Shown here piece by piece: positions 9,516 to 21,092 of a stretch of DNA of 54,259 bases (its first letter is position 1; each line of letters starts with the position of its first letter). Source of the stretch: Desulfobacterium sp. (GTDB lineage Bacteria; Desulfobacterota; Desulfobacteria; Desulfobacterales; Desulfobacteraceae); assembly GCA_016342325.1 (NCBI GenBank), contig JAEINR010000035.1, forward strand, positions 1 to 54,259, in the 5' to 3' direction. The translations under genes were made by a program, and so were the position numbers. The notes beneath the pieces are model-generated. The model ran no database searches, was not told where the DNA came from, and saw only the letters and a program-made list of their open reading frames with translations.

Positions 9516-11099
9516 TTAAATCAGTTCAGGGGCTAATCTCTGTATGGTTTCATCCACATAGATAGACGGAAAGTGCCCGCCCCGGTAGTATAGAAGCGCT
9601 CTGGGAAGACAGTTTAAAAAGGCTTGGGCCACTTCAGGGTCAAAATGACTGCCGGAATCTTTTTTCAGGATGGAAATTACCCGATCCAGGGGCATGGGTT
9701 CACATGACATGATTTCTTCGGAATCATATTTGGGATAATCTCTTCTCGAGGTCAGGGCATCAAACACATCGGCAACGGCAAGGATTTTCGAGCCCAGGTG
9801 CATTTCATCACCTGTTAATCCGTCGGGATAGCCTTCCCCATTGACTTTCTCATGGTGATGGGCGGCAATGCCTGGTACTTCTGTTAATTTGTTTGGGAAG
9901 TGAAATTTGTCTAGAATTGACTTTGTTTTTACCGTGTGAGAATTCATTTCTTCCCTGTCTTCATCTGTAAAACGTCCGTCTTTCAATAACACCTTATCAC
10001 GGATGCCGATTTTACCGATATCATGCAGAAGGGCAGAATATTTGAGAATTTCCATCTCTTTTTTAGTCAGCTTCATTTCCCTTGCGATCATTAGTGCGTA
10101 TTGGGTAACCCGTTCCGAATGGCCCGCAGTAAAGGGGTGTCTTGCATCAACAATGGCCGAGAGGGTCGTGATGGAGCTGTCAAATGACAATTTGATCTCT
10201 TCGTGGAGAAAGGAATTTTCAAGGGATATGGCCACCTGGGATGCAAGGCCTTTCAGGAAGAGTTCATCCTCCCGGGTAAACCGGGGATAGTTCTTTTTGT
10301 TGATGATCTGGAGCACGCCGATTTTCTTCCCGGTCTTGTTTGTAATTGGAATGCACAGGACAGATCTTGTCCGGAACTTGTTTTTTTGATCAAAGGTCCG
10401 GTTAAAATAGGGGAGATCCCAGGCATCTTCCACATTCACCAACTCACCCGTCACAGCCACATGTCCGCAGATGCCCTGGTCCATGGGAAGGCGGATCTGC
10501 TCTACTCCTTCCGAGACTTCAGTCCAGAGTTCCCTTTTTGACCAGTCGATAACATAGAGACTGCTCCTTTCAGCAGACATTATCTGGGTTACCTTCCCAA
10601 TGATCAGGGGGAATAATTTTTTATAGTCCAGTTCGGAAGTGAGAGCATGGGACACATCAATCAACTCGGACAAGCGCTTATTGAGATTGGCCTGTTCCTG
10701 CTGCAGTGAGTTGTTTTTTTCGATTAAAGACTTCTCATTGAGGAAACGGACCAATTTGATGTTAAACTCATCTGTGGTCACCGGTTTTCTGATAAAAGCT
10801 TTTGCCCCGCCGCCGATAATCCGCTTATAGGAATAATCTGTACTATACCCGGTCATTATAAAATCAGGGGGGTCGGGTTCTTCTTCAATAATATCTTCCA
10901 TAAGGCTTATTCCGTCCATGCCGGGCGCATTGATATCTGCAATGACAATATCAAAGGCGTTCGTACGTGTCAGATGGCAGGCCTCACTTCCGCTGGAAGT
11001 CACCTGGGGTTTTTGATGTCCAAGGGATTGGATCACCATGGACATCATTTTAGAAACTGCGGGTTCGCCTTCAACGATGAGAAAAGATATTGATGCCAT
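9516..11099 (-). CDS. REC-GAF-HD-GYP response regulator
   Basis: Two-component response regulator of 527 aa predicted to hydrolyse cyclic di-GMP. The receiver domain is at about 1-120 with phospho-acceptor Asp55 (IADIN) and Lys105 (RKP). A coiled linker at about 121-150 and a GAF domain at about 155-300 follow. The HD-GYP domain at about 305-500 has LLHDIGK (His359-Asp360), then HHEKVNGEGYP, both intact. The N-terminal acidic pocket, normally D-D/E-E, reads E-G-E (10-12), so one metal-binding acid is a glycine and phosphorylation may be altered. AGGA precedes the ATG. No cognate kinase is adjacent. Output would lower c-di-GMP and favour motility. Confidence 0.9.
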   Translation of the reverse strand: MASISFLIVEGEPAVSKMMSMVIQSLGHQKPQVTSSGSEACHLTRTNAFDIVIADINAPGMDGISLMEDIIEEEPDPPDFIMTGYSTDYSYKRIIGGGAKAFIRKPVTTDEFNIKLVRFLNEKSLIEKNNSLQQEQANLNKRLSELIDVSHALTSELDYKKLFPLIIGKVTQIMSAERSSLYVIDWSKRELWTEVSEGVEQIRLPMDQGICGHVAVTGELVNVEDAWDLPYFNRTFDQKNKFRTRSVLCIPITNKTGKKIGVLQIINKKNYPRFTREDELFLKGLASQVAISLENSFLHEEIKLSFDSSITTLSAIVDARHPFTAGHSERVTQYALMIAREMKLTKKEMEILKYSALLHDIGKIGIRDKVLLKDGRFTDEDREEMNSHTVKTKSILDKFHFPNKLTEVPGIAAHHHEKVNGEGYPDGLTGDEMHLGSKILAVADVFDALTSRRDYPKYDSEEIMSCEPMPLDRVISILKKDSGSHFDPEVAQAFLNCLPRALLYYRGGHFPSIYVDETIQRLAPELI

Positions 11100-11455: not shown

Positions 11456-12685
11456 ATGAATTTACAAGGAGATTTTGAAGGGTTAACACTTGCCAGTATT
11501 CTTCAACTGCTGTGTAATGATCAGAAAACCGGAATCCTGACCGTTACCCGGGAGAGTGTTGAAAGCCGGGTATTTTTTGACCAGGGAACCATTGTCTATG
11601 CTTCTGCTTCTCTTAAGCAGTCGAGGCTGGGGTTTTTAATGCGTGCAGATGGCATCATCTCTGCCCAGCAGCTTCAAAAATGTCTTGCCTTTGCCAAAGA
11701 AGAAAAAATCCATCTGGGTAAAATCCTGGTTGAAAAAGGGTATATTTCCTTGGAAACCCTGAAAAAATACAATACCAAACAGGTGGAGACCATCCTGTAT
11801 GACCTTCTTTTCTGGGAAAAAGGAAAATTTGAGTATAAAGATGCCCGGTTGAACCTGAAAAACATGATTGTTACCCAGCTCAATCCCATGAAGTTGATCC
11901 TTGAAGCCTCAAGGAGAATCGACGAATTATCCGTCTTGAAAAAAGTGATACCCAGTGACAAACTGGTATTTAAAATGTCAGGAAAGGTTCAAACCAAAGA
12001 AGAAATTAAACTCAATGCCAATGAATGGCGGGTGCTTTCCCTGATTGACGGATCCCGGTCTGTGCGGCAGGTGATCACGGAAAGCGGCTACGATGAATTT
12101 GCCGTTTATAAAATATTCTTCTCTGTGATATCATCGGGGCTGATCGAGCAAAAAGAAGAGATCCAGCTCAATAACGGGGAAACCGGCAACGGGTTGTCCG
12201 CCATTCTCACGGTTTTCAACGACATACTTCAGACCATTAAAAAAAACATTGCCGACGAGTTGGGGGAAAGAACCCATTCGCTTTTCCAGGAAAGCAAATC
12301 CGAACTTGGGACCCCAATCAAGAAAATATTTGAAAGTTTTCATCCGGACAATACAAAAAATGAGAATCTCCAGGCCATTGAGACCACCTTAAAGTCCATG
12401 GACGAAATTAAAAACCAGAAAGAGTTGATCATCTCAGGCTTTATCGCGTATTGTGAGCAGGTGCTGATACGGGTGGGCAAGATTCTAGGCGCCCAGCCAC
12501 TGACGAAAACCCTGAATGATATTGAAAAAGTTTTGGGATATGTTCAGAAGTATCAAACCGGATCAAAAGAAAAGGATAGAATCGTCATTGACATGAAAAC
12601 CGCCATGGACGGTATCCGTTCACAGTTTAATATAGGCAAAAAACAGGACAAGCCCAGAAAGGGGTTCCTCTCCCTTTTCACCTGA
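11456..12685 (+). CDS. DUF4388 domain protein
   Basis: Cytoplasmic protein of 409 aa. The N-terminal DUF4388 (PATAN-like) domain covers about 1-150: it begins GDFEGLTLASILQLLCNDQKTGILTV and continues with VFFDQGTIVYA, FLMRADGIIS and LLFWEKGKFEY. A winged-helix-like segment with LNANEWRVLSLIDGSRSV lies near 180-240, and a helical, coiled C-terminal half follows. DUF4388 proteins commonly accompany two-component and Ras-like GTPase systems and act as effectors or adaptors. This gene ends 11 bases from the end of the convergent GTPase/roadblock operon, which supports a shared pathway. AGGAAAGGG before the ATG sets the start. Function beyond signalling adaptor is inference. Confidence 0.75.
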   Translation: MNLQGDFEGLTLASILQLLCNDQKTGILTVTRESVESRVFFDQGTIVYASASLKQSRLGFLMRADGIISAQQLQKCLAFAKEEKIHLGKILVEKGYISLETLKKYNTKQVETILYDLLFWEKGKFEYKDARLNLKNMIVTQLNPMKLILEASRRIDELSVLKKVIPSDKLVFKMSGKVQTKEEIKLNANEWRVLSLIDGSRSVRQVITESGYDEFAVYKIFFSVISSGLIEQKEEIQLNNGETGNGLSAILTVFNDILQTIKKNIADELGERTHSLFQESKSELGTPIKKIFESFHPDNTKNENLQAIETTLKSMDEIKNQKELIISGFIAYCEQVLIRVGKILGAQPLTKTLNDIEKVLGYVQKYQTGSKEKDRIVIDMKTAMDGIRSQFNIGKKQDKPRKGFLSLFT

Positions 12686-12696
12686 TCCTCCCACGC

Positions 12697-12972
12697 CTAG
12701 GAATCTGACAGTTTTCCCCCCCCGTAGGCCAGGAAGGAGAGGGCAGCGGTTCGGAAAAGGGCACGGATAATATCCAACACCTCTTTGTCCACAAACGGAT
12801 TAAGAATCGCAACATAATCGGCAACAAACAAAAGGCAGACCGTGACCAGGATCAAATTAATCACCTTCCCGACTTTTCCACCGGCGTACTTGACCCGGCC
12901 CTTGTTAAAGACAAAAATAATAATTAAATAGATTACCAGAGTAAAAACCGATATGATCATTTGTGCGGTCAT
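12697..12972 (-). CDS. Small two-to-three-helix membrane protein
   Basis: 91-aa integral membrane protein of unknown function. Hydrophobic segments are seen at about 4-24 and 38-58, with a weaker one near 68-85. The short loop KGRVKYAGGKVGK between the first two is basic and probably cytoplasmic. GGAGG lies four bases before the ATG. It is the last gene of the GTPase/roadblock operon, 12 bases after its neighbour, and could anchor that system at the membrane. No family recognised. Confidence 0.6.
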   Translation of the reverse strand: MTAQMIISVFTLVIYLIIIFVFNKGRVKYAGGKVGKVINLILVTVCLLFVADYVAILNPFVDKEVLDIIRALFRTAALSFLAYGGGKLSDS

Positions 12973-12984
12973 TGATCCTCCATT

Positions 12985-13317
12985 TTAGCCTTTTTTATCA
13001 AGATGCGTATTGAGAAATTCCATAACGGCGTCTGCCACTTCAACGGTCACGAAACCCTTTTGTTCTACCACTCCAAGATAGTACTTGCCAACAGGAAAAA
13101 TTAAAAAATTATTTTTGTCTTTCCTTAAAAATACGACATATTTAAAATTTTTCTTTCCCAGGACCGACAGACGCTGGCCGCAGGACCATACCACTCCAGC
13201 GACGTTTTCGAATTCTGTCATATCATGAATTACGATATTTCCCCTGTCATCCACCAGAACGTACTGATCAACGCCCCTGATCCGGCCAATATCCGAACAC
13301 CGATCCATGAACGCCAT
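12985..13317 (-). CDS. Roadblock/LC7-like protein
   Basis: About 110 aa, predicted alpha/beta protein resembling the roadblock/longin fold: a GVDQYVLVDDRGNIV strand pair, a helix, FKYVVFLRKDKNNFLIFPVG, then LGVVEQ and a C-terminal helix. Such proteins bind or regulate small Ras-like GTPases such as MglA, whose gene lies upstream in the same operon. An ATG four codons further upstream has no ribosome site, whereas GGAGG sits five bases before the chosen ATG at 13317. The fold call rests on pattern, not on a conserved motif, so it is moderately sure. Confidence 0.65.
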   Translation of the reverse strand: MAFMDRCSDIGRIRGVDQYVLVDDRGNIVIHDMTEFENVAGVVWSCGQRLSVLGKKNFKYVVFLRKDKNNFLIFPVGKYYLGVVEQKGFVTVEVADAVMEFLNTHLDKKG

Positions 13318-13331
13318 CGATTCCTCCATTT

Positions 13332-13796
13332 TTATGCAAGGTCGAGGATGAATTTATGGACATCATCCGGCAGGGAAGGTGTCCGGGTGACAATGACAAC
13401 CCACAGGTTGTCCTGCACCCTGTGAATCATGAAATACTTATCCGCAATCCGGATGTACATGCCTAGGATATCCGGATAGGCGGATTGGCCGCTGGTATAG
13501 CTGTGGGAGAACGCCCTGCCAAGGGTTTCAATATCTGCCCGGGTTAAACTCGTCGGCATTCGGGTCTCTCTGACCCCATTTTTCGTATCGTATAAAAATC
13601 CGCCGATAACTTCAGAAAAACAGCAGATGGATTTCAGTATCCTGTCTTTTTTCCGGTGGCGTTCCTTTTCCTGGGGGCAAAAAAAATAGGCATTACGATA
13701 ACCGCATGCATGGCACTTAAAGACGGCTTTCCCATTTGAAAAAGCGGATCCTTCCAGATCGTTTTTTTCCCCGCAGTCTTCACAAAAAAAAATCAT
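13332..13796 (-). CDS. Zinc-ribbon / roadblock-like protein
   Basis: 154 aa. The N-terminal zinc ribbon has CEDCG at about residues 5-9 and CHACGY at about 28-33, four cysteines suited to one zinc ion. The C-terminal part (about 60-150: IGGFLYDTKNGVRETRMP, later YFMIHRVQDNLWVVIVTRT) has the strand-helix-strand pattern of a roadblock/longin-type domain. The stop of the upstream gene and the start of this one are separated by one base, so translation is probably coupled. It is the second of two roadblock-like proteins encoded in a row here, besides the one at 16096-16491. Confidence 0.6.
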   Translation of the reverse strand: MIFFCEDCGEKNDLEGSAFSNGKAVFKCHACGYRNAYFFCPQEKERHRKKDRILKSICCFSEVIGGFLYDTKNGVRETRMPTSLTRADIETLGRAFSHSYTSGQSAYPDILGMYIRIADKYFMIHRVQDNLWVVIVTRTPSLPDDVHKFILDLA

Positions 13797-13797
13797 A

Positions 13798-15411
13798 TCA
13801 GCAAGGGAACAGTGATTTTATTTTGGCCCAAACCCCTCCTGGGGAAGGTTTTACCGATTCCGTCGCCTTCTCTTCTGCCACTGTTTCCATTTGGCTTTCA
13901 GGATCCGACCGGGGGGCCAGAAGGTCTCCCTTTTTCGGGGCATGGCTGTATCGGGCAAGGGAGGCCAGCAGTTCTAAGAGTGAGATCTTATCCGGATCAT
14001 CCCGCCATTCCGCTTTTAAAAGGGACACATCTGCAGTAAACGCCGTGAAAACCGTTTTCGCTGTTAACCCGCCCGGGTTTTTCAGGCAAGTCCTTAACCT
14101 TTCCAGGAGACGCGACGCCTGATCTTCTTCCTCTTCCATAAAGGATTCATCTTCATACTGAAAAGGGACAATGGCATCCTGGTCATCAGGCGGGTCATTC
14201 TCCACCCCACTGGTGGACCGGTCATTCTCCATGCGTTGGTCCGGGTTTATGGAAGGCTCCTTTATTTTCTTTTCCGAAACATCCAGGTTGAAAAATGCAT
14301 CAAGGCTACTTTCGATTTCCGGTATGGGTTCCTTGTTCATTCGTTGGGGAGTAAAATTCTGAACCCCTTCTTTCTGATCCTTTTCTTCTGCCGCTCCGAA
14401 CGCCTCCATGCCATATTCCTGTTCGGGTCCGTGAATTTCAGCCAGGTGGATGGCATCCAGCAGCTTATCTGCAGGAGACTCTTTGGCCATGAAAAGGTCA
14501 TCTAGCATATCCCTTGAATCAGAGACTTTTTTTCTATTATCGACTAGGGCCGGGGGGATGTCATCATCGGCTCGGCCGGACCCGGACAAAGAGATGTCCT
14601 TCTCCGGTAGTCTGCTCAGGGGAACCGAATGTCCGGTTGAGGGTGCGGATTTAATATGCGACAGGGCCGGTGCCACCTCTTCATCCGCTGGATCCTGGAC
14701 TGGCTTGGAACTTGCGGGTCGGGCAATTTTACGCTTAAACTCTTGAAATGCACGGATATCCGCTTCAAGCATCTGTTTTTGATCCGCAGCCGTCAGATCC
14801 GGATGCTGGACCATCCGTTCAAAATTTTGAAAAACAGACTGCAAAAGCACCAGGGAGTCCTTATGGGCATCGGCCTTATTCCGGGCGACATATTCCCCGA
14901 TACTGTGCATGATTTTCAAAAATGAATGATGAATTTTATGGGACTTCATTTTTGAAGTCAGCGGTTTAATCACAGCGTTAAAGCTTTTCAGGGTGATGTC
15001 TGAGATTTCCCAGTCGATGGAAAGGATCACGGCCTTGAGCGCCTCTAGGTCCTTTGGGGACACCAGGGGGGCTTCAGCTATTCCGACCTTGAGGCGTTTA
15101 AAGGATTGGATTCCCCAGGCCAGCATTTCATCGGCTTTCCCGGGGTTTTCCCGGGGAAGGTGAACGAGACTGTCCAGGAGTTCTACCAACTCACGGAGGA
15201 CCGGCAGGGTGTCTTTATGGGCGTTATTTATTTCAGATGCCAGGTATTTGCCAATGGCGTGCAGCATTTTCGCAAAAGAGGCTGCGGGGGCATTGCCCCT
15301 GACCTGGGTTTCAAGGTCTGCGACCTGTCTTTCAAATTCATTAACATCATCAACCGTTACGCCCGATTCCATGGAATCAATGATCTGTTTGATGTTCGCA
15401 AGGGAATTCAA
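13798..15411 (-). CDS. Repeat-containing acidic adaptor protein
   Basis: 537 aa, no family recognised. The N-terminal region is an internal duplication. Around residues 45-105, FAKMLHAIGKYLASEINNA and HKDTLPVLRELVELL are followed by FKRLKVGIA; around 165-225, FLKIMHSIGEYVARNKADA and HKDSLVLLQSVFQNF are followed by FKRKIARP. Each unit is helical. A long acidic, proline- and serine-rich, probably disordered stretch follows (about 230-440), then a short helical C-terminus. The gene starts at TTG (15411) behind a perfect AAGGAGG with a 5-base spacer. It lies 10 bases after the GTPase gene and is probably an effector or scaffold for it. Confidence 0.65.
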   Translation of the reverse strand: MNSLANIKQIIDSMESGVTVDDVNEFERQVADLETQVRGNAPAASFAKMLHAIGKYLASEINNAHKDTLPVLRELVELLDSLVHLPRENPGKADEMLAWGIQSFKRLKVGIAEAPLVSPKDLEALKAVILSIDWEISDITLKSFNAVIKPLTSKMKSHKIHHSFLKIMHSIGEYVARNKADAHKDSLVLLQSVFQNFERMVQHPDLTAADQKQMLEADIRAFQEFKRKIARPASSKPVQDPADEEVAPALSHIKSAPSTGHSVPLSRLPEKDISLSGSGRADDDIPPALVDNRKKVSDSRDMLDDLFMAKESPADKLLDAIHLAEIHGPEQEYGMEAFGAAEEKDQKEGVQNFTPQRMNKEPIPEIESSLDAFFNLDVSEKKIKEPSINPDQRMENDRSTSGVENDPPDDQDAIVPFQYEDESFMEEEEDQASRLLERLRTCLKNPGGLTAKTVFTAFTADVSLLKAEWRDDPDKISLLELLASLARYSHAPKKGDLLAPRSDPESQMETVAEEKATESVKPSPGGVWAKIKSLFPC

Positions 15412-15421
15412 AACAACCTCC

Positions 15422-16027
15422 TTAGAATAGATGCTCCTGGATGGATGCCAGTGTAATGGATATGATCTTTTTCAATGTGGGAATCACGTTCCCTCCGTTT
15501 AAAGCGCTTGCCTCAAATGCAGGAACATTTAAAAGGCCGTTCAGGTCCTTTTGCAGGGTTTGTGAGGAGAGGGTGGGAATATCGGTTTTATTTAAATCAA
15601 TTTTATTATATTGCATAACCAGTGGGATGTTAAACAGATCAAGCTTATAGGTTTTCAGGTTTTCATATAATTGATTTAAAGACTCAATATTTTTTTTCCG
15701 CTGGGATTGCTGAACGTCGGCCACAAAAACAATACCGTCTACCCCCCTCAGCACCAGCTTGCGGGTGGCATTGTACTTTACCTGACCGGGAACGGTGTAC
15801 AATTGGATGGCCACATCAAATCCCTTTATCTGTCCCACGTCAAAGGGCAGAAAATCAAAAAAGAGGGTTCGGTCGTCATGGGTTTTAAGACTGACCATTT
15901 CAGTCTTGATCTGCTCCCGGTAGGTCCGGTTGAGATACTCAAGGTTTGTTGTTTTTCCCCCCCTTCCCGGACCATAGTAGACAATTTTGATCTGTACTTC
16001 CTTGGTCTTTACATTGATGAGCGCCAA
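15422..16027 (-). CDS. MglA-type small Ras-like GTPase
   Basis: 201-aa bacterial Ras-superfamily GTPase of the MglA group. Seen: the N-terminal INVKTKEVQIKIVYYG typical of MglA, P-loop GPGRGGKTT at about 19-27, the switch-II region YTVPGQVKYNATRK (around 75-90), LRGVDGIVFVADVQ, and the base-recognition motif NKID. MglA proteins set cell polarity or switch motility machinery and are turned off by roadblock-type GAPs. The start is TTG at 16027 with AAGGGGGA 5-6 bases upstream; it fits the family's N-terminus exactly. A roadblock gene precedes it and a repeat protein follows it, so it is the switch of this operon. The pathway it controls is not visible. Confidence 0.9.
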   Translation of the reverse strand: MALINVKTKEVQIKIVYYGPGRGGKTTNLEYLNRTYREQIKTEMVSLKTHDDRTLFFDFLPFDVGQIKGFDVAIQLYTVPGQVKYNATRKLVLRGVDGIVFVADVQQSQRKKNIESLNQLYENLKTYKLDLFNIPLVMQYNKIDLNKTDIPTLSSQTLQKDLNGLLNVPAFEASALNGGNVIPTLKKIISITLASIQEHLF

Positions 16028-16095
16028 ATTTTCCCCCTTAAGGTTCCGGGTTTGGTAAACCGGTTTTGCCCTGGATGATTCCTTGTCTCAATATT

Positions 16096-16491
16096 TCATG
16101 GGATATCCGGGTCGGCCAGCACCTGAATTATTTCCTTGATGGCCACAGCTACTTTCAGTCTCACAATGCCAAGTGAAATATCCTTGTTGAACATGGAAAC
16201 AAGCAGGGTGTCATTGCTGACCTTGCTGAAATGGATGCTTAATTTTTCGCCCTTATGAAACAACAGGGAAAATTCGGATTCACCCACCAGTTTGGCCATG
16301 GCATCTACGGCTGCGAAATTGCCTGCTGCCAGGGCTGCAAAGGCCGTTGAATCCAGGCGGGTCTTTCCATTGTCATGCTTGGCAATGGTGTTTCCGCTCA
16401 TTTCCATGTAGATCACATGATCAATTCCGGCGGCGATTAAATGGGTTTCAATCGCATGGTCTATGGCATCAAGTTGGTTTTGATTTAACAT
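16096..16491 (-). CDS. Roadblock/LC7 (MglB-like) protein
   Basis: 131-aa roadblock/LC7 family protein. The sequence has the typical layout: an N-terminal helix, a strand pair HVIYMEMSGNTIAKH, the helical FAALAAGNFAAVDAMAKLVG, a strand GESEFSLLFHKGEKLSIHF, then LLVSMFNKDISLGIVRLKV and a last helix. MglB-type proteins of this fold are GTPase-activating partners of MglA, encoded 68 bases downstream. It is the first gene of the six-gene operon. The start codon lacks an obvious Shine-Dalgarno sequence. Confidence 0.8.
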   Translation of the reverse strand: MLNQNQLDAIDHAIETHLIAAGIDHVIYMEMSGNTIAKHDNGKTRLDSTAFAALAAGNFAAVDAMAKLVGESEFSLLFHKGEKLSIHFSKVSNDTLLVSMFNKDISLGIVRLKVAVAIKEIIQVLADPDIP

Positions 16492-16566: not shown

Positions 16567-19500
16567 TCATGGCTTTTGGATCAATCTTTCGATCAGATTT
16601 TCGATGATTTTAGGCAGGTCGTTCATTTTTTTCTCTATATTTGTAATATCAAAGAGGTCGGCATAGCCGGTCAAATCATCGCTGAATGCCGCAAGCTGTG
16701 GTACATGATGTTTATCAGCCAGTTGCTGCAATGTTATTGAGAAATCCTTTATCTGCCCGATAATCATGGAGTTTTTATGTAATAGGCAGGATGGAAGAAT
16801 TTCATTTTTTAATTTTATAATAAGGTCGGAAGGATTCAAGACGTCCGACCTTACAATCGTGTGAAGTGATTGCGCCTGTTTTTTCTTTTGTTTATCAAAA
16901 TGTGCCTCACCTATATATTTATATAGTTCATTTATCAGTTCTCCAATTTTGACCGGTTTGGTAATATAACTGTCATATCCTTTTTCAAAAGCGCTTGTTT
17001 TGGTCTTTGCCACCACATCGCCGGTAAAAGCGATAATGGGGATGTTTTTTGTATCCGGGGCTGACTTGAGTATCTCCGTGACCTGATTCCCGTCCAGCTC
17101 CGGCATCCGGATATCCATAATAATGATATCCGGTTTGTTTTCCCTTGCCATGGTCAGTGCTTCCTGGCCGTTGCAGGCCTCAAGGACATCCTGGTTGAAT
17201 CTGATTAAAAGTTCTTTCAGCATAAAACGATTGGATTCAATATCATCGACAATGAGTATTTTCTTTTTTTCAAAACAAGGCAAACCACTTTGGGTTCCAG
17301 GGGATTGCTTTTCCACAGTTCTGGTTTCATCTGATAAAATGCTCACATTTTTTAAGCAGATTGTAAATGTGCTGCCGACATCTTTTTGGCTGGTAACGCC
17401 TATCTGACCACCCATTGCCTCTGTAAGTCTTTTGCAAATTGCAAGCCCAAGACCTGTCCCGCCATACCTTCTGTTTATTTGTCCATCCGCCTGCTTGAAA
17501 GATTCAAAGATTGAATGCAATTGGTTTTTTTCAATCCCAAGCCCTGTATCCTCGACCTTGATGATCAGATCAATCATGTTCAAGGTTTGATTCTCTTTTT
17601 TTTCTGCTGTTAATTTAATGGATCCTTTTTCAGTGAATTTTACTGCATTGCCCACAAGGTTTAAGAGGATCTGCCTTGCACGGCTTTCATCAAGATTCAA
17701 TAAGGGCGGAATGTCACTGGCTATATCCACAGCAAGGCTGATACCCTTATTGCAGATTTTATCCTTAAAAATAAATTCGATTTCTAAAAATAAAAGTTTC
17801 AAATTCACCGGTTCATAGTTAAAGACTATTTTGTCGGCTTCAATTTTTGAAAGATCCAGGATATCATTAATTAATGTAAGAAGGCTTTTTCCGGCAGCCC
17901 TCATTGCCACAATATAGCTTTCCTGCTTAGGATCATTTAAATCAACGGACAACAATTCGCTGAACCCGAGTAATACGTTTAATGGCGTGCGTATTTCATG
18001 GCTCATATTTGCTATAAACTCAGATTTTGCATTGTTTGCGGCCTTGGCAGCTTTCCACTCTCTTTGGGCTTTTTGTTTTTCTCTGCCCTCGGTAATATCA
18101 ATGACAAATCCTTCATAATAATCCCCAGGACTTCCTTCATCATGTATTTTATTGACAGAAATAGAGCTCCAGAACCAGCTACCGTCTTTTTTTAAAAGAC
18201 GTGTTTCATATGCAACGATTCTTCCTTCTGTCTCCAATAAATGTGTGATTTTTAGACTATCCTTTTTTGAGACGGGGAATTTTTTTTCTTTTTTGCCGGC
18301 AAACATCTCCTCCACTGAATTATATCCCAGTATTTTGGAAAAAGAGGGGTTTGCATTGAGAATTACACCATCAAGCGTTGTTTGAAAGATTCCTTCCACG
18401 GCATTTTCAAAAATTCCTCTGTATTTTTGCTCAGCTATTCTCAGTTCAGAGGTTCGTTGGTCAACTCTTAATTCAAGATCGTCCTTGGCTTTTTCAAGGA
18501 GAATATTTTGCCGTTTAATTCTTAAATCTGAGATTTCAAGATTTTGGGCCATTCCATTCAGTGCATGACCGATTTCGCCGATTTCATCCCTGTTTTTTAT
18601 GTTGAGACGAAAATTCAAATGCCCTGCGCCCATTTTTTTAAGCCCTGAAACCACTTCCTGAATCGGACGGGATAAAGAATTCGTAATAATAAAGATCACC
18701 AGGCCAACGATCAAAGCGACGACAACCGTGAACATACCGTTCAGGCGGCCCAGGTTTTTGATTGAAAAAAAAATTTCATCTTTAAAGGCGGTAACCACAA
18801 TTGTTCCATTTATTCGGGGAAGCTTTTTAAAGGAAGCAATCATTTCTTTACCATTCAACTCACACTCGAGGAGCCCGTTTTGAATCTGCAGCATCGTTTG
18901 GCCAAAGCAAAAATCCTTAATGTTACGCCCGTATTTTTTAAGGTCCTCCCGATTGGAAACAATTAAACCATCATTTAAAAACATATAGGCATAACCGGTC
19001 TTTCCGATCCTGATCGGATCAACAAATTTCTTTACAAGGGTATTCAAGTCAAACACAGCAAAAAGAACGCCCACAACTTTTTCTTTATCTTTTACCGGAG
19101 CTGAAATCATGAATATTGAATTACCACGGGCCCGGCTTTTAAATATCTGGTTTGACACATAAATGTCGCCCTTTAATGCGTTTATAAAATATTCTCTGTC
19201 CCCCACATTAAATTTGCCTACGACATCCGGATCAGAGTTGGCCACAATCTCACCCGATAGGTTTGCCACTACGATATCATCATAGAATCCATAATCCTGC
19301 TTTATCTGTTTTAATTGCTCATTGGCAAAGGTCCTGGCAGTTAATCCCAAAAATGAATTCAGCAAAGCCTTTTTATAAACCCCTTGTTTACTCCAGTTGC
19401 CAATATCAATCTTACGATGATCAATCCACGAAGACATGGACAAGGCAGTTGTATGGGTCATATTCTCAATTTCATCAACGATCACTTTTGTCAGGGCATT

Positions 19501-19659
19501 TTTTGCCTTAATATGCGAAACAACAGAAACGATTCCCATGCCGGCAATGAGCAGGAACACCGCTGGGATAAGAAATTTGTATTTTATACTGATTCGCAAA
19601 AGAGAGCCTTTACTTGAATATTCTTCATTTCCAGGCGATTCATTGGGTGACCGCAACAA
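16567..19659 (-). CDS. Hybrid sensor histidine kinase with Cache and PAS
   Basis: Membrane hybrid kinase of about 1030 aa. TM1 is at about 27-48, a periplasmic double Cache-like domain at about 50-300, TM2 at about 306-328 and HAMP at about 329-382. PAS is at about 408-522 and the dimerisation domain carries phospho-acceptor His554 (MSHEIRTPL). An ATPase domain with NLVGNAVKFTEKG and DTGLGIE is followed by a receiver with Asp849 (IIIMDIRMP) and Lys at about 901. An HPt-like helical end (about 930-1025) lacks a histidine in the usual setting. It senses a periplasmic ligand and relays phosphate to an unknown regulator. The N-terminus is uncertain: 19659 is a TTG without a good ribosome site, and a TTG at about 19596 follows AAAGG. 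It lies 161 bases downstream of the ATP-grasp gene and may share its transcript. Confidence 0.9.
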   Translation of the reverse strand: MLRSPNESPGNEEYSSKGSLLRISIKYKFLIPAVFLLIAGMGIVSVVSHIKAKNALTKVIVDEIENMTHTTALSMSSWIDHRKIDIGNWSKQGVYKKALLNSFLGLTARTFANEQLKQIKQDYGFYDDIVVANLSGEIVANSDPDVVGKFNVGDREYFINALKGDIYVSNQIFKSRARGNSIFMISAPVKDKEKVVGVLFAVFDLNTLVKKFVDPIRIGKTGYAYMFLNDGLIVSNREDLKKYGRNIKDFCFGQTMLQIQNGLLECELNGKEMIASFKKLPRINGTIVVTAFKDEIFFSIKNLGRLNGMFTVVVALIVGLVIFIITNSLSRPIQEVVSGLKKMGAGHLNFRLNIKNRDEIGEIGHALNGMAQNLEISDLRIKRQNILLEKAKDDLELRVDQRTSELRIAEQKYRGIFENAVEGIFQTTLDGVILNANPSFSKILGYNSVEEMFAGKKEKKFPVSKKDSLKITHLLETEGRIVAYETRLLKKDGSWFWSSISVNKIHDEGSPGDYYEGFVIDITEGREKQKAQREWKAAKAANNAKSEFIANMSHEIRTPLNVLLGFSELLSVDLNDPKQESYIVAMRAAGKSLLTLINDILDLSKIEADKIVFNYEPVNLKLLFLEIEFIFKDKICNKGISLAVDIASDIPPLLNLDESRARQILLNLVGNAVKFTEKGSIKLTAEKKENQTLNMIDLIIKVEDTGLGIEKNQLHSIFESFKQADGQINRRYGGTGLGLAICKRLTEAMGGQIGVTSQKDVGSTFTICLKNVSILSDETRTVEKQSPGTQSGLPCFEKKKILIVDDIESNRFMLKELLIRFNQDVLEACNGQEALTMARENKPDIIIMDIRMPELDGNQVTEILKSAPDTKNIPIIAFTGDVVAKTKTSAFEKGYDSYITKPVKIGELINELYKYIGEAHFDKQKKKQAQSLHTIVRSDVLNPSDLIIKLKNEILPSCLLHKNSMIIGQIKDFSITLQQLADKHHVPQLAAFSDDLTGYADLFDITNIEKKMNDLPKIIENLIERLIQKP

Positions 19660-19820: not shown

Positions 19821-21092
19821 TTATTCAATCCCCATGGCATTCAAAATTAGTTCTAACTCAGCTAATCGTTCTATATCCGGGCCCATTAGAATCACAGCAA
19901 AAGCACCTGTTTTATCCAGATTGTCGCAATTATAGGGAAATACGGATTCTGACAGTTGGCCATTAAAAAGGATGGGGCGCAACCGCTTTGAGAGCATATT
20001 AAATGAACACGGTTTTGTTTTTACTTTTATAAATTTCCAACAGGGAACGATGCCTGTCAACGCCTCAATGTTATTTACGATGAGACTGACATAGGAGGAT
20101 CCGTTAAAACGGGCATTGTTTTCAACGGGGTAAATTCCTGAATCTGTAACAATATAATCAATGCCAATGACACCCACATACCCTTGGTCTGCCATATCAT
20201 TAACAAGGCTGAGAGACGTTTTTTTTATATATTGCAATTCAGTTGAATCCGGTTCTCGCTGTTTAATTGTCGCAATATGACAGGTTCCATTTTTACAAAT
20301 CTGATCCCGTTTACCGAGATGCCGGATTTTCTTCTCCCTGGTAATGATCCACTGGTCATTTGGAGACGAAGTGACATTCAGGAAGGGTTCAATGATTATC
20401 TTTGTTACGCCAAGTTTCAAGATTTGATTGTACAGAACATGGATATCATCTCCGCTTGTTTTAAATACAAGCGACCTCCCTGTGTTATCCAAGGTTCCGC
20501 GTATCAGAACTGTAGAGGTGTCAGGCAGGTATGATTGAATGATTTCATCCATTTCAAGAACGTTTTTTTTCTCTTCCGGGTGCAAAAAAAAAACGGTATC
20601 ATCAACCATTGGAATATCCAATTGCCGGCAAACGTTTTTAAAAATTGATTTCTCGTTATATTTCCAAGTCAAAGTGGCAGGGGCGCCAAAAAGGTCAGCC
20701 CCAATTGATATAGCAGCCATTTCTTCTGCCTCACTTGAAAACCATGGGACATATACGGGTTTTTTATTCATGGCTTGAATGATTCGTTGAACCGGTTCAG
20801 GATTTTCCACAATCACCTGGGAAAGTGTTTTTTTTCTGGATGATTCACCATACGCTAGGATATGGTCGGTTCCAAGCCCCAAGGAACGTAACCAGCTCTG
20901 GTACTCCTGATCCAGATTTCCTCGCAATACCACGACATCATTTGATCGTGCAGCGGGAAGTGCCCGGTCACATTTTGAAGCAATCAGACCATTCGCCAAT
21001 GTGAATTGTGATAAATTGTCCGTGCCATATACGAGACACTCATTGTCATCATCTGATATGCATTCTCTGAACAAATTAAGCCTGTTTCTCAT
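19821..21092 (-). CDS. ATP-grasp ligase with pre-ATP-grasp domain
   Basis: 423-aa ATP-grasp enzyme. The first ~150 residues form a Rossmann-like pre-ATP-grasp part (VYGTDNLSQFTLANGLIAS, later VYVPWFSSEAEEMAAISIG). The ATP-grasp fold follows, with TWKYNEKSIFKNVCRQLDIP, the lid strand IIIEPFLNV and the metal-binding DSGIYPVENNARFNGSSY (Glu and Asn of E-N-N-A-R). The C-terminal ~60 residues resemble the tail of PGM1-like peptide ligases. It should couple a carboxylate to an amine with ATP; substrates are unknown. It starts 3 bases after the stop of the binding-protein gene, so the two are cotranscribed. No precursor peptide gene was found beside it. Confidence 0.8.
   Translation of the reverse strand: MRNRLNLFRECISDDDNECLVYGTDNLSQFTLANGLIASKCDRALPAARSNDVVVLRGNLDQEYQSWLRSLGLGTDHILAYGESSRKKTLSQVIVENPEPVQRIIQAMNKKPVYVPWFSSEAEEMAAISIGADLFGAPATLTWKYNEKSIFKNVCRQLDIPMVDDTVFFLHPEEKKNVLEMDEIIQSYLPDTSTVLIRGTLDNTGRSLVFKTSGDDIHVLYNQILKLGVTKIIIEPFLNVTSSPNDQWIITREKKIRHLGKRDQICKNGTCHIATIKQREPDSTELQYIKKTSLSLVNDMADQGYVGVIGIDYIVTDSGIYPVENNARFNGSSYVSLIVNNIEALTGIVPCWKFIKVKTKPCSFNMLSKRLRPILFNGQLSESVFPYNCDNLDKTGAFAVILMGPDIERLAELELILNAMGIE

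Follow-up and report, generated by a model that had tools for sequence, protein, structure and literature searches.

The locus examined here, at positions 11456 to 16491 of the window (the whole analysed stretch of 54,259 nucleotides from Desulfobacterium sp.), is a composite: a core made up of the genes for MglB, MglA, a scaffold and a zinc-ribbon protein is combined with an extra pair of roadblock proteins and with a pair consisting of a small membrane protein and a DUF4388 protein. In our main reading, to which we assign a probability of roughly 0.5, it encodes an MglA switch for polarity or motility, to which an accessory roadblock pair is docked by means of the zinc ribbon and which possesses a membrane-linked DUF4388 output. 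To our knowledge, almost all that is understood of MglA polarity comes from Myxococcus, in whose genome the parts lie scattered. In the window, the partner set forms a single compact locus, which is conserved in the cultured relatives Desulfospira joergensenii and Desulfocicer vacuolatum, and can therefore be tested by joint expression.

Composition and conservation of the locus

All seven ORFs are present in the window; as the initial annotation had described, six of them form a minus-strand run with operon-like spacing, which faces a plus-strand ORF. The gaps along the run are 68, 10, 1, 2 and 12 bases; the value of 2 replaces an earlier 14, which resulted from taking an internal start at 13317 for the small-roadblock ORF. 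The membrane gene at the end of the run and the DUF4388 gene stand tail to tail, their ends being 11 bases apart. A hybrid histidine kinase is located 75 bases upstream of the operon, and a kinase call ends just before MglB in some loci only. HD-GYP and histidine kinase neighbours were rejected as parts of the module, as their position is inconsistent across the gene map of 46 named loci.

These 46 loci (L002-L047) were fetched by MglA similarity. The order MglB, MglA, scaffold, zinc ribbon, small roadblock, membrane protein, with DUF4388 facing, recurs in 15 of them (L002-L008, L010, L011, L013, L017, L020, L037, L040, L045; the scaffold of L020 consists of two ORFs); the computed synteny thus extends beyond the source genome, and the gene set is more than a chance arrangement. 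A search of 35 family genomes (G000-G034, own genome included) with six of the genes located MglA, scaffold, zinc-ribbon protein, small roadblock, membrane protein and DUF4388 together on a single contig in 14 cases; among the sampled genomes, the zinc ribbon and the small roadblock are fused to one ORF in G018, and one stop lies inside the small-roadblock match of G024. The named loci overlap other sampled genomes (L018 and L176, for example, have an identical zinc-ribbon sequence); therefore, the counts are not independent. According to searches of the own genome, its sole MglA, its sole Pfam-detectable roadblock and its sole DUF4388 are all inside the locus.

The GTPase core and its scaffold

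MglA (201 residues; 15422..16027, minus strand) aligned over its full length to solved MglA structures (3t12_A, E 1.4e-52; 6h17_A, E 6.6e-51). Its sequence reads GPGRGGKT in the P-loop, R53, and T78-V-P-G-Q82. Group 1 MglA proteins are recognised by an arginine in G2 and TVPGQ in G3 (PMC4316618); judged by its sequence, the window protein carries this signature through R53, T78 and Q82. The MglB-type roadblock protein (131 residues; 16096..16491, minus strand) scored 27.6 bits with Robl_LC7 (Pfam cut-off 23), and its best PDB matches are MglB proteins (E 1.4e-15); the NCBIfam MglB equivalog model gave 58.4 bits, which is below its cut-off of 200. The protein is probably the GAP of MglA, and as such would drive GTP hydrolysis. 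The identities originally proposed for these two genes, and for the DUF4388 gene discussed below, were thus borne out by PDB alignment (MglA), Robl_LC7 (MglB) and the DUF4388 model.

The scaffold (537 residues; 13798..15411, minus strand) has no match in Pfam or NCBIfam and none that is significant in the PDB. Its AlphaFold model shows two five-helix domains in tandem, followed by a disordered linker and a third half-repeat. Repeat 1 (residues 1-115; 15067..15411, minus strand) and repeat 2 (residues 119-231; 14719..15057, minus strand) are related according to hhalign (P 9.7e-25), and so is the C-terminal half repeat of three helices (residues 431-490; 13942..14121, minus strand; P 1e-5 versus repeat 1, 5.7e-6 versus repeat 2). 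Repeat 2 is the part that short scaffolds of other families have as well. Within the linker, residues 302-326 (the MLDDLFMAKESPADKLLDAIHLAEI region; 14434..14508, minus strand) contain invariant columns in alignment A3 and were modelled as a helix within a low-confidence region, which makes this motif a candidate docking peptide. The scaffold may hold the other parts by means of its tandem helical domains and the conserved peptides of its disordered linker. It had been put up for structure prediction alongside the two roadblock-like proteins; the helical model rules out a roadblock. A role in phosphotransfer was likewise considered: CheA P1 domains appeared in the Foldseek search at E 0.33-3.0 (TM by target 0.36-0.68). 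This role was dropped because no Foldseek match reached E 0.001 or better and the histidine of the corresponding helix is not conserved in alignment A3.

In the loci L021-L033, a group delimited by record titles and list position, the MglB-MglA-scaffold unit is kept and none of nine has a zinc ribbon (0/9). The extra parts are therefore dispensable for this unit.

A constant zinc ribbon with exchangeable partners

The zinc-ribbon protein (154 residues; 13332..13796, minus strand) begins with a ribbon of the type CxxC...CxxC (residues 1-38; 13683..13796, minus strand), whose cysteines C5, C8, C28 and C31 are invariant in 19/19 aligned members. Eighteen of these 19 matched Zn_ribbon_4 weakly (best 1.4e-5); the window protein gave 14.3 bits, below the Pfam cut-off of 30.3. 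The second half (residues 41-153; 13338..13676, minus strand) is a predicted roadblock fold: the AlphaFold model (pLDDT 85.7, pTM 0.63) has the order helix-strand-strand-helix-strand-strand-strand-helix, and Foldseek ranked roadblock proteins at the top (an archaeal one with the best E, 3e-5), with MglB as well as Ragulator and Rag entries also among the matches. For this protein, the roadblock assignment of the initial annotation was upheld. The likeness stems from structure only, since Robl_LC7 is absent from the listed Pfam family matches and a profile comparison with MglB detected no relation (P 0.11 and 0.13).

The ribbon follows the scaffold within 1 kb in 38 of 46 loci of the Desulfobacterales type, or in 39 if L037, which the strict positional rule missed, is included; the remaining 879 kb of these loci contain 12 further zinc ribbons. 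L014, L035, L036, L038, L043 and L196 lack a ribbon within 1 kb of the scaffold, and the called ORF of L007 lacks the first CxxC. What varies by lineage is the attached part: it is a roadblock in the window clade, of the small-roadblock type in L015 and L016, an FHA domain in L210 and a HAMP sensor in L203, and there is nothing attached in L172-L174. In this computed exchange of partners, the domains of L203 and L210 were assigned by Pfam, that of L034 by eye, and all others by length, position and similarity. The zinc ribbon may act as a constant plug that docks the roadblock pair to the scaffold or to MglA, its cargo being swapped between lineages. A constant ribbon with changing partner domains suggests a way of connecting a single GTPase core to varied inputs.

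An N-terminal four-cysteine zinc ribbon is also found in GltJ/AgmX of M. xanthus and in ZitP of Caulobacter. With a profile built from the zinc ribbons of HAMP-type neighbours, AgmX, ZitP and the window ribbon each scored above 1000/1000 cysteine-preserving shuffles; the profile of the window clade is weaker, AgmX being beaten by 34/1000 and ZitP by 4/1000 shuffles. The zinc finger region of GltJ is reported, in a paper of 2024, to respond to MglA and to recruit MglB. The ZnR of ZitP targets the pole (PMC5182065). Unlike in these proteins, the ribbon of the window is part of a soluble roadblock protein without a membrane segment. Our findings tie the GltJ/AgmX zinc finger to a wider pattern.

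The extra roadblock pair

The small protein (114 residues; 12985..13329, minus strand) is probably roadblock-like, as sub-threshold profile matches suggest. In its family, 6/21 members match Robl_LC7 (best E 0.0013, all below the Pfam cut-off), and a distant relative in L214 does so at 8.6e-4, also below the cut-off; for the window protein, Pfam yielded no match up to E 1, and NCBIfam added no information for it. Dynein or archaeal roadblocks account for 11 of the 15 PDB matches of the family profile (E 0.063-0.96), the best single match being a thiol-disulfide oxidoreductase (E 0.022). Comparison with the MglB profile by hhalign gave P 4.6e-4 and a probability of 32.9%; for the roadblock of the zinc-ribbon protein, the probability was 8.9%. 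The proposal of three roadblock proteins in the locus therefore holds for MglB and the zinc-ribbon protein and is probable for the third. Neither of the outcomes that the initial annotation had named as refuting it came about. The accompanying statement that MglA modules usually have one roadblock partner needs to be changed: M. xanthus has MglC beside MglB (PMC7949163), and L198, L206 and L210 contain an MglB-MglA-MglB arrangement.

In 8/10 other loci fetched with the second half of the zinc-ribbon protein, the two extra roadblocks are adjacent. Seven of these eight pair loci (L187-L190, L212, L214, L216) have the pair beside DUF4388-profile ORFs and no MglA in the fetched stretch, the DUF4388 labels stemming from an in-house profile with some hits as weak as E 2e-3; in L188, DUF4388 is fused to a response regulator. 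The pair is thus independent of MglA by computation, and both observations would fit a pair that has no part in MglA turnover and constitutes a separate signalling unit serving DUF4388, merely co-transcribed with MglBA. We consider this unlikely, if deserving of serious weight: in the window clade, the pair is part of the MglBA operon and follows the scaffold immediately, with gaps of 1-2 bases, and the zinc ribbon is still found behind the scaffold where the roadblocks were lost. In our main reading, the roadblock of the zinc-ribbon protein and the small one would instead act together as an accessory pair, joined most likely in a heterodimer, and would bind MglA or the MglA-MglB complex; we infer this heterodimer, as we do all physical contacts and the cellular role of the locus products.

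Two further proposals draw on Ragulator (LAMTOR) and the Rag GTPases, with which the locus shares several roadblocks, a partly disordered scaffold, a candidate membrane anchor and a small GTPase; the GTPase family is a different one, and no sequence relation was found between the window scaffold and p18. On a Ragulator-like platform, the conserved linker peptides of the scaffold would wrap the roadblock heterodimer, which, anchored to the membrane and DUF4388, would load and position MglA-GTP, and MglB would switch MglA off. The zinc ribbon would plug into MglA-scaffold units universally, and its swapped cargo (roadblock, FHA, Cache/HAMP sensor) would rewire which signal meets the same GTPase. 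This scheme appears to us decidedly unlikely. Still more improbable, in our estimate, is that the pair is the exchange factor of the window MglA and replaces RomR/RomX of Myxococcus, MglB opposing it as the GAP. Roadblock assemblies can be exchange factors for Rag GTPases (PMC9481161), Ragulator and Rag entries are among the Foldseek matches, and a GTPase flanked by two roadblock units would be subject to opposing activities; but MglA persists in L018, L172-L174 and further loci that lack the small roadblock, which is therefore not generally needed.

The membrane protein and DUF4388

The membrane protein (91 residues; 12697..12972, minus strand) shows three hydrophobic stretches by eye and belongs to no known family of Pfam or NCBIfam. 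The facing DUF4388 (PATAN) protein (409 residues; 11456..12685, plus strand) scored 116.5 bits with DUF4388 (Pfam cut-off 25); a Pfam search identified no receiver domain. The two genes are also paired without MglA nearby, twice tail to tail as in the window (the membrane ORFs of L220 and L227 had been removed from the gene list by an overlap filter and were placed by a separate search). They are, by this computation, a separate and widespread pair and not private to the GTPase operon; the distinct membrane-linked switch that had been suggested is therefore a deduction from synteny. In our main reading, the DUF4388 protein would be tethered at the inner membrane together with the membrane protein and represent the output, whose target would probably be envelope machinery at the pole, for instance type IV pili.

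Among 58 relatives, PilT was above the cut-off in 54, including 15/17 without MglA. The co-occurrence thus shows no tie to type IV pili, because PilT does not track MglA. This distribution would suit a module whose target is not motility and lies, for example, in envelope assembly, secretion or filament growth; moreover, gliding is not known from the closest named relatives. Such a target is nevertheless improbable in our view, as the characterised MglA proteins serve polarity, motility or predation (PMC4316618) and cyanobacterial DUF4388/PATAN proteins act on pilus motors (PMC7690835).

Residues 57-109 of the DUF4388 protein (53 residues; 11624..11782, plus strand) form an MshEN-like double repeat (NF053729, 38.1 bits, cut-off 38). 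In the c-di-GMP receptor MshEN, a spacer of 5 residues separates two motifs of 24 residues each (RLG...G...L...; PMC5013675), and this two-motif pattern is found here. In the DUF4388 proteins, motif 1 has the arginine in 25/25 and the glutamine in 0/25 cases, motif 2 the arginine in 0/25 and the glutamine in 25/25. A working c-di-GMP receptor was therefore rejected; as one key residue is altered in each half, these sequences make binding of c-di-GMP doubtful.

Relation to known MglA and PATAN systems

The locus resembles the M. xanthus module, to which MglC, RomR/RomX and RomY also belong, with respect to the intrinsic arginine and glutamine of MglA, the position of T78, the roadblock GAP MglB and the presence of more than one roadblock protein. 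In contrast to M. xanthus, whose mglA is not close to the genes of its partners (PMC4316618), the window has a single locus in which a scaffold and two extra roadblocks are combined with a zinc ribbon, DUF4388 and a membrane protein. The Streptomyces conservons (CvnA-D) likewise combine a GTPase of the MglA family with a roadblock in one gene cassette (PMC4316618); they contain a Group 2 GTPase, a dedicated histidine kinase and CvnC, whereas the window has the Group 1 signature, three roadblocks (the third a probable one) and a scaffold. The DUF4388/PATAN domain is shared with the cyanobacterial PATAN-REC regulators PixE, PixG and LsiR, of which PixE binds the pilus motor PilB1 (PMC7690835, PMC9090330). 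Unlike these regulators, the window protein lacks a receiver domain and forms a pair with a membrane protein; PATAN proteins are thereby joined to MglA and a membrane partner outside the cyanobacteria. Nine other loci have a DUF4388 gene, labelled by the in-house profile, at a distance of 10-50 bases from an MglA of a second type.

Gene layout and the MglA-MglB core

The arrangement proposed in the initial annotation, six minus-strand ORFs facing a DUF4388 ORF, was borne out by the ORF check. The gaps of 68, 10, 1, 14 and 12 bases were likewise confirmed, the fourth being 14 when the small roadblock gene is read from the later of its two starts and 2 otherwise. The membrane gene (12697-12972, minus strand) and the DUF4388 gene (11456-12685, plus strand) converge, their ends lying 11 bases apart. 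Among named relatives, a Desulfobacterium MAG (locus L002) comes closest in MglA, with 95% identity. The MglB product (16096-16491) matches Robl_LC7 above the Pfam cut-off, and its best solved relatives are MglB proteins (E 1.4e-15). The MglA product (15422-16027) aligns over its full length with solved MglA (E 1.4e-52) and contains R53, T78 and Q82.

Composition of the locus

Given the spread of the core unit, the roadblock pair and the membrane/DUF4388 pair in the fetched loci of relatives (L002-L230), the window locus is composite: it looks like an MglB-MglA-scaffold-zinc ribbon unit that has recruited a pair of roadblocks and lies beside a membrane/DUF4388 pair.

The most widespread unit of the locus is MglB-MglA-scaffold. 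It occurs, with long scaffolds, in L021-L033 (Desulfobulbaceae, Desulforhopalus, Desulfofustis and unplaced titles), where none of the nine loci having at least 1 kb downstream holds a zinc ribbon. Of the 46 other, Desulfobacterales-type loci, 38 (39 counting L037) have a zinc-ribbon ORF starting at most 1 kb downstream of the scaffold; elsewhere in those same loci there are 12 zinc-ribbon ORFs in 879 kb. The partner of the ribbon is a roadblock in the window clade and a small-roadblock domain in L015, L016 and the family genome G018. Pfam identifies it as an FHA domain in L210 (1.3e-13) and as a HAMP sensor in L203; L034 was read by eye as FHA, and L192, L195, L201, L205, L207, L039 and L042 were assigned to the HAMP type from their position and similarity. 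In L172-L174 nothing is attached. L018 has kept the zinc-ribbon roadblock and lacks the small one.

The pairing of the two extra roadblocks is old. Ten loci (L187-L190, L211-L216) were fetched as encoding relatives of the second half of the zinc-ribbon protein; a small-roadblock relative adjoins in eight of them, and in seven of these eight a DUF4388-profile ORF lies beside the pair. No MglA was found in the fetched stretches; the genomes of L187-L190 carry one elsewhere. The DUF4388 protein of L188 bears a receiver domain, and HAMP proteins, which are membrane proteins, are located near the pair in L212 and L187.

The 91-residue membrane protein goes together with DUF4388 and is present in 24 of 58 relatives and in 15 of 297 genomes of the phylum, its own included. 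In 13 of the 14 other phylum loci (L217-L230; L229 ends at a contig edge) a DUF4388-profile ORF lies beside it, and no MglA was found in these stretches. Five further pairs (L180-L184) include two from genomes without any MglA (G008, G016). The tail-to-tail arrangement of the two genes in the window recurs in L222 and L223, at distances of 55 and 60 bases. A DUF4388-profile ORF is also directly beside a second MglA type in nine loci of the order (L191, L193, L197, L199, L200, L202, L204, L205 and L208); the proximity of certain MglA genes to PATAN genes has been described before (PMC4316618).

Judged by identity to the window in the family genomes G002, G010 and G033, the GTPase (84, 86, 84%), membrane (93, 86, 74%) and DUF4388 (81, 81, 71%) parts stay fixed, and the adaptor parts change fast: scaffold 53, 48, 39%, zinc-ribbon protein 57, 45, 35%, small roadblock 57, 45, 33%.

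Two further variants deserve mention. DUF4388 gene, roadblock, roadblock forms a separate conserved cassette in distant families of the phylum (L187-L190, L212, L214, L216), and in L198, L206 and L210 two MglB genes flank one MglA (MglB-MglA-MglB-scaffold-zinc ribbon).

Zinc-ribbon protein and probable small roadblock

In the zinc-ribbon protein (13332-13796), four cysteines are invariant in 19/19 aligned members. Zn_ribbon_4 is matched by 18 of the 19 (best 1.4e-5), the window protein staying below the cut-off. The candidate roadblock fold of the initial annotation is supported by structure prediction: the second half was modelled as helix-strand-strand-helix-three strands-helix (mean pLDDT 85.7), and Foldseek gave 71 matches at E <= 0.001, the top one being an archaeal roadblock (E 3e-5). 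The titles of the best 50 of these 71 name roadblock, MglB, Ragulator/Rag, dynein or axonemal proteins, with one "human heteroheptameric complex" as the sole exception.

A HAMP-type ribbon profile, built from 11 zinc ribbons of MglBA neighbourhoods, scored AgmX (GltJ) at 30.8, the window ribbon at 26.2 and ZitP at 22.6 bits; each outscored 1000/1000 cysteine-preserving shuffles. With a profile of the window clade alone the signal is weaker: 34/1000 shuffles beat AgmX and 4/1000 beat ZitP. The GltJ zinc finger region reportedly works with MglA and MglB. The ZitP ribbon is described as directing proteins to the pole, and a passage of the same paper describes the AgmX ribbon in Caulobacter as not polar (PMC5182065).

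The small protein (12985-13329) is a probable roadblock, with some doubt, as judged from profile comparisons. It has no Robl_LC7 match itself at E up to 1; six of 21 family members match (best 0.0013), as does the distant relative in L214 (8.6e-4). In the PDB profile search, dynein or archaeal roadblocks make up 11 of 15 matches (E 0.063-0.96), the best single match being a thiol-disulfide oxidoreductase (E 0.022). The hhalign probabilities are low both against MglB (P 4.6e-4, 32.9%) and against the zinc-ribbon roadblock (P 3.7e-3, 8.9%).

Scaffold

The scaffold (13798-15411) matches no known family in Pfam or NCBIfam, and a PDB sequence search gave nothing of value (best E 0.004, a lectin stalk region). 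In its model (mean pLDDT 66.7, pTM 0.33), two five-helix domains of good confidence are followed by a linker, disordered from about 234 to 428, in which the conserved motifs 302-326 and 364-374 form short helices; the C-terminal part consists of three helices. According to hhalign, repeat 1 is homologous to repeat 2 (P 9.7e-25), and each aligns with the C-terminal part (P 1e-5 for repeat 1, 5.7e-6 for repeat 2), a third half repeat. Foldseek found no match at E up to 0.001; its weak list includes designed repeat proteins and CheA P1 domains.

A protein of about 156 residues, read by eye as winged-helix-like at the N-terminus with a "GPIAE" domain at the C-terminus, lies between scaffold and zinc-ribbon sensor in L192, L194, L195, L201, L203, L205, L207, L208, L036, L038, L039 and L035. 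The "GPIAE" domain seems, by eye, also to end roadblock proteins of L188, L190, L212 and L214.

DUF4388 repeat and possible mechanism

The DUF4388 domain contains an MshEN-like double repeat of 53 residues (11624-11782, plus strand; NF053729, 38.1 bits versus a cut-off of 38), whose motif and spacing fit the c-di-GMP motif as published (PMC5013675). Each half has one of its key residues for c-di-GMP changed: of the four, a Gln and an Arg are replaced in 25/25 orthologues. The repeat is probably a relative that has lost binding, or binds otherwise.

We propose that MglB would act as GAP, that the zinc-ribbon and small roadblocks would form an accessory dimer docked by the ribbon to the scaffold or MglA, and that the scaffold would bring the components together; DUF4388 and the membrane protein would jointly signal to envelope machinery which state MglA is in. 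All contacts between the products, and the cellular role, are inferred. Pili are a fair guess as target by analogy, because cyanobacterial PATAN proteins are described to bind the pilus motor PilB1 (PMC7690835, PMC9090330). PilT, however, does not track MglA, being over the cut-off in 54 of 58 relatives, including 15 of 17 without MglA.

MglA with more than a single roadblock is already described (PMC4316618), MglC being a further case (PMC7949163), and RomY is described as helping MglB GAP activity (PMC9481161). In the open-licence literature, MglA, roadblock and zinc ribbon were not found together, DUF4388 was found only in connection with nitrite reductase, and papers on MglA, GTPase and Desulfo included none on the present subject, by title.

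Neighbouring genes

In L230 (5074-6429) the membrane protein forms the N-terminus of a 451-residue protein, and a DUF4388 gene adjoins. Divergent from the window's DUF4388 gene is a response regulator-GAF-HD-GYP gene (9516-11099, minus strand), a probable c-di-GMP phosphodiesterase that has no consistent place across related loci. On the same strand as MglB and 75 bases upstream of it lies a large hybrid histidine kinase (16567-19659, minus strand; dCache, HAMP, PAS, HisKA, receiver); the next gene upstream (19821-21092, minus strand) has weak pre-ATP-grasp/ATP-grasp matches below the cut-off. The kinase also precedes MglB in the close relative L002, there as two ORFs.
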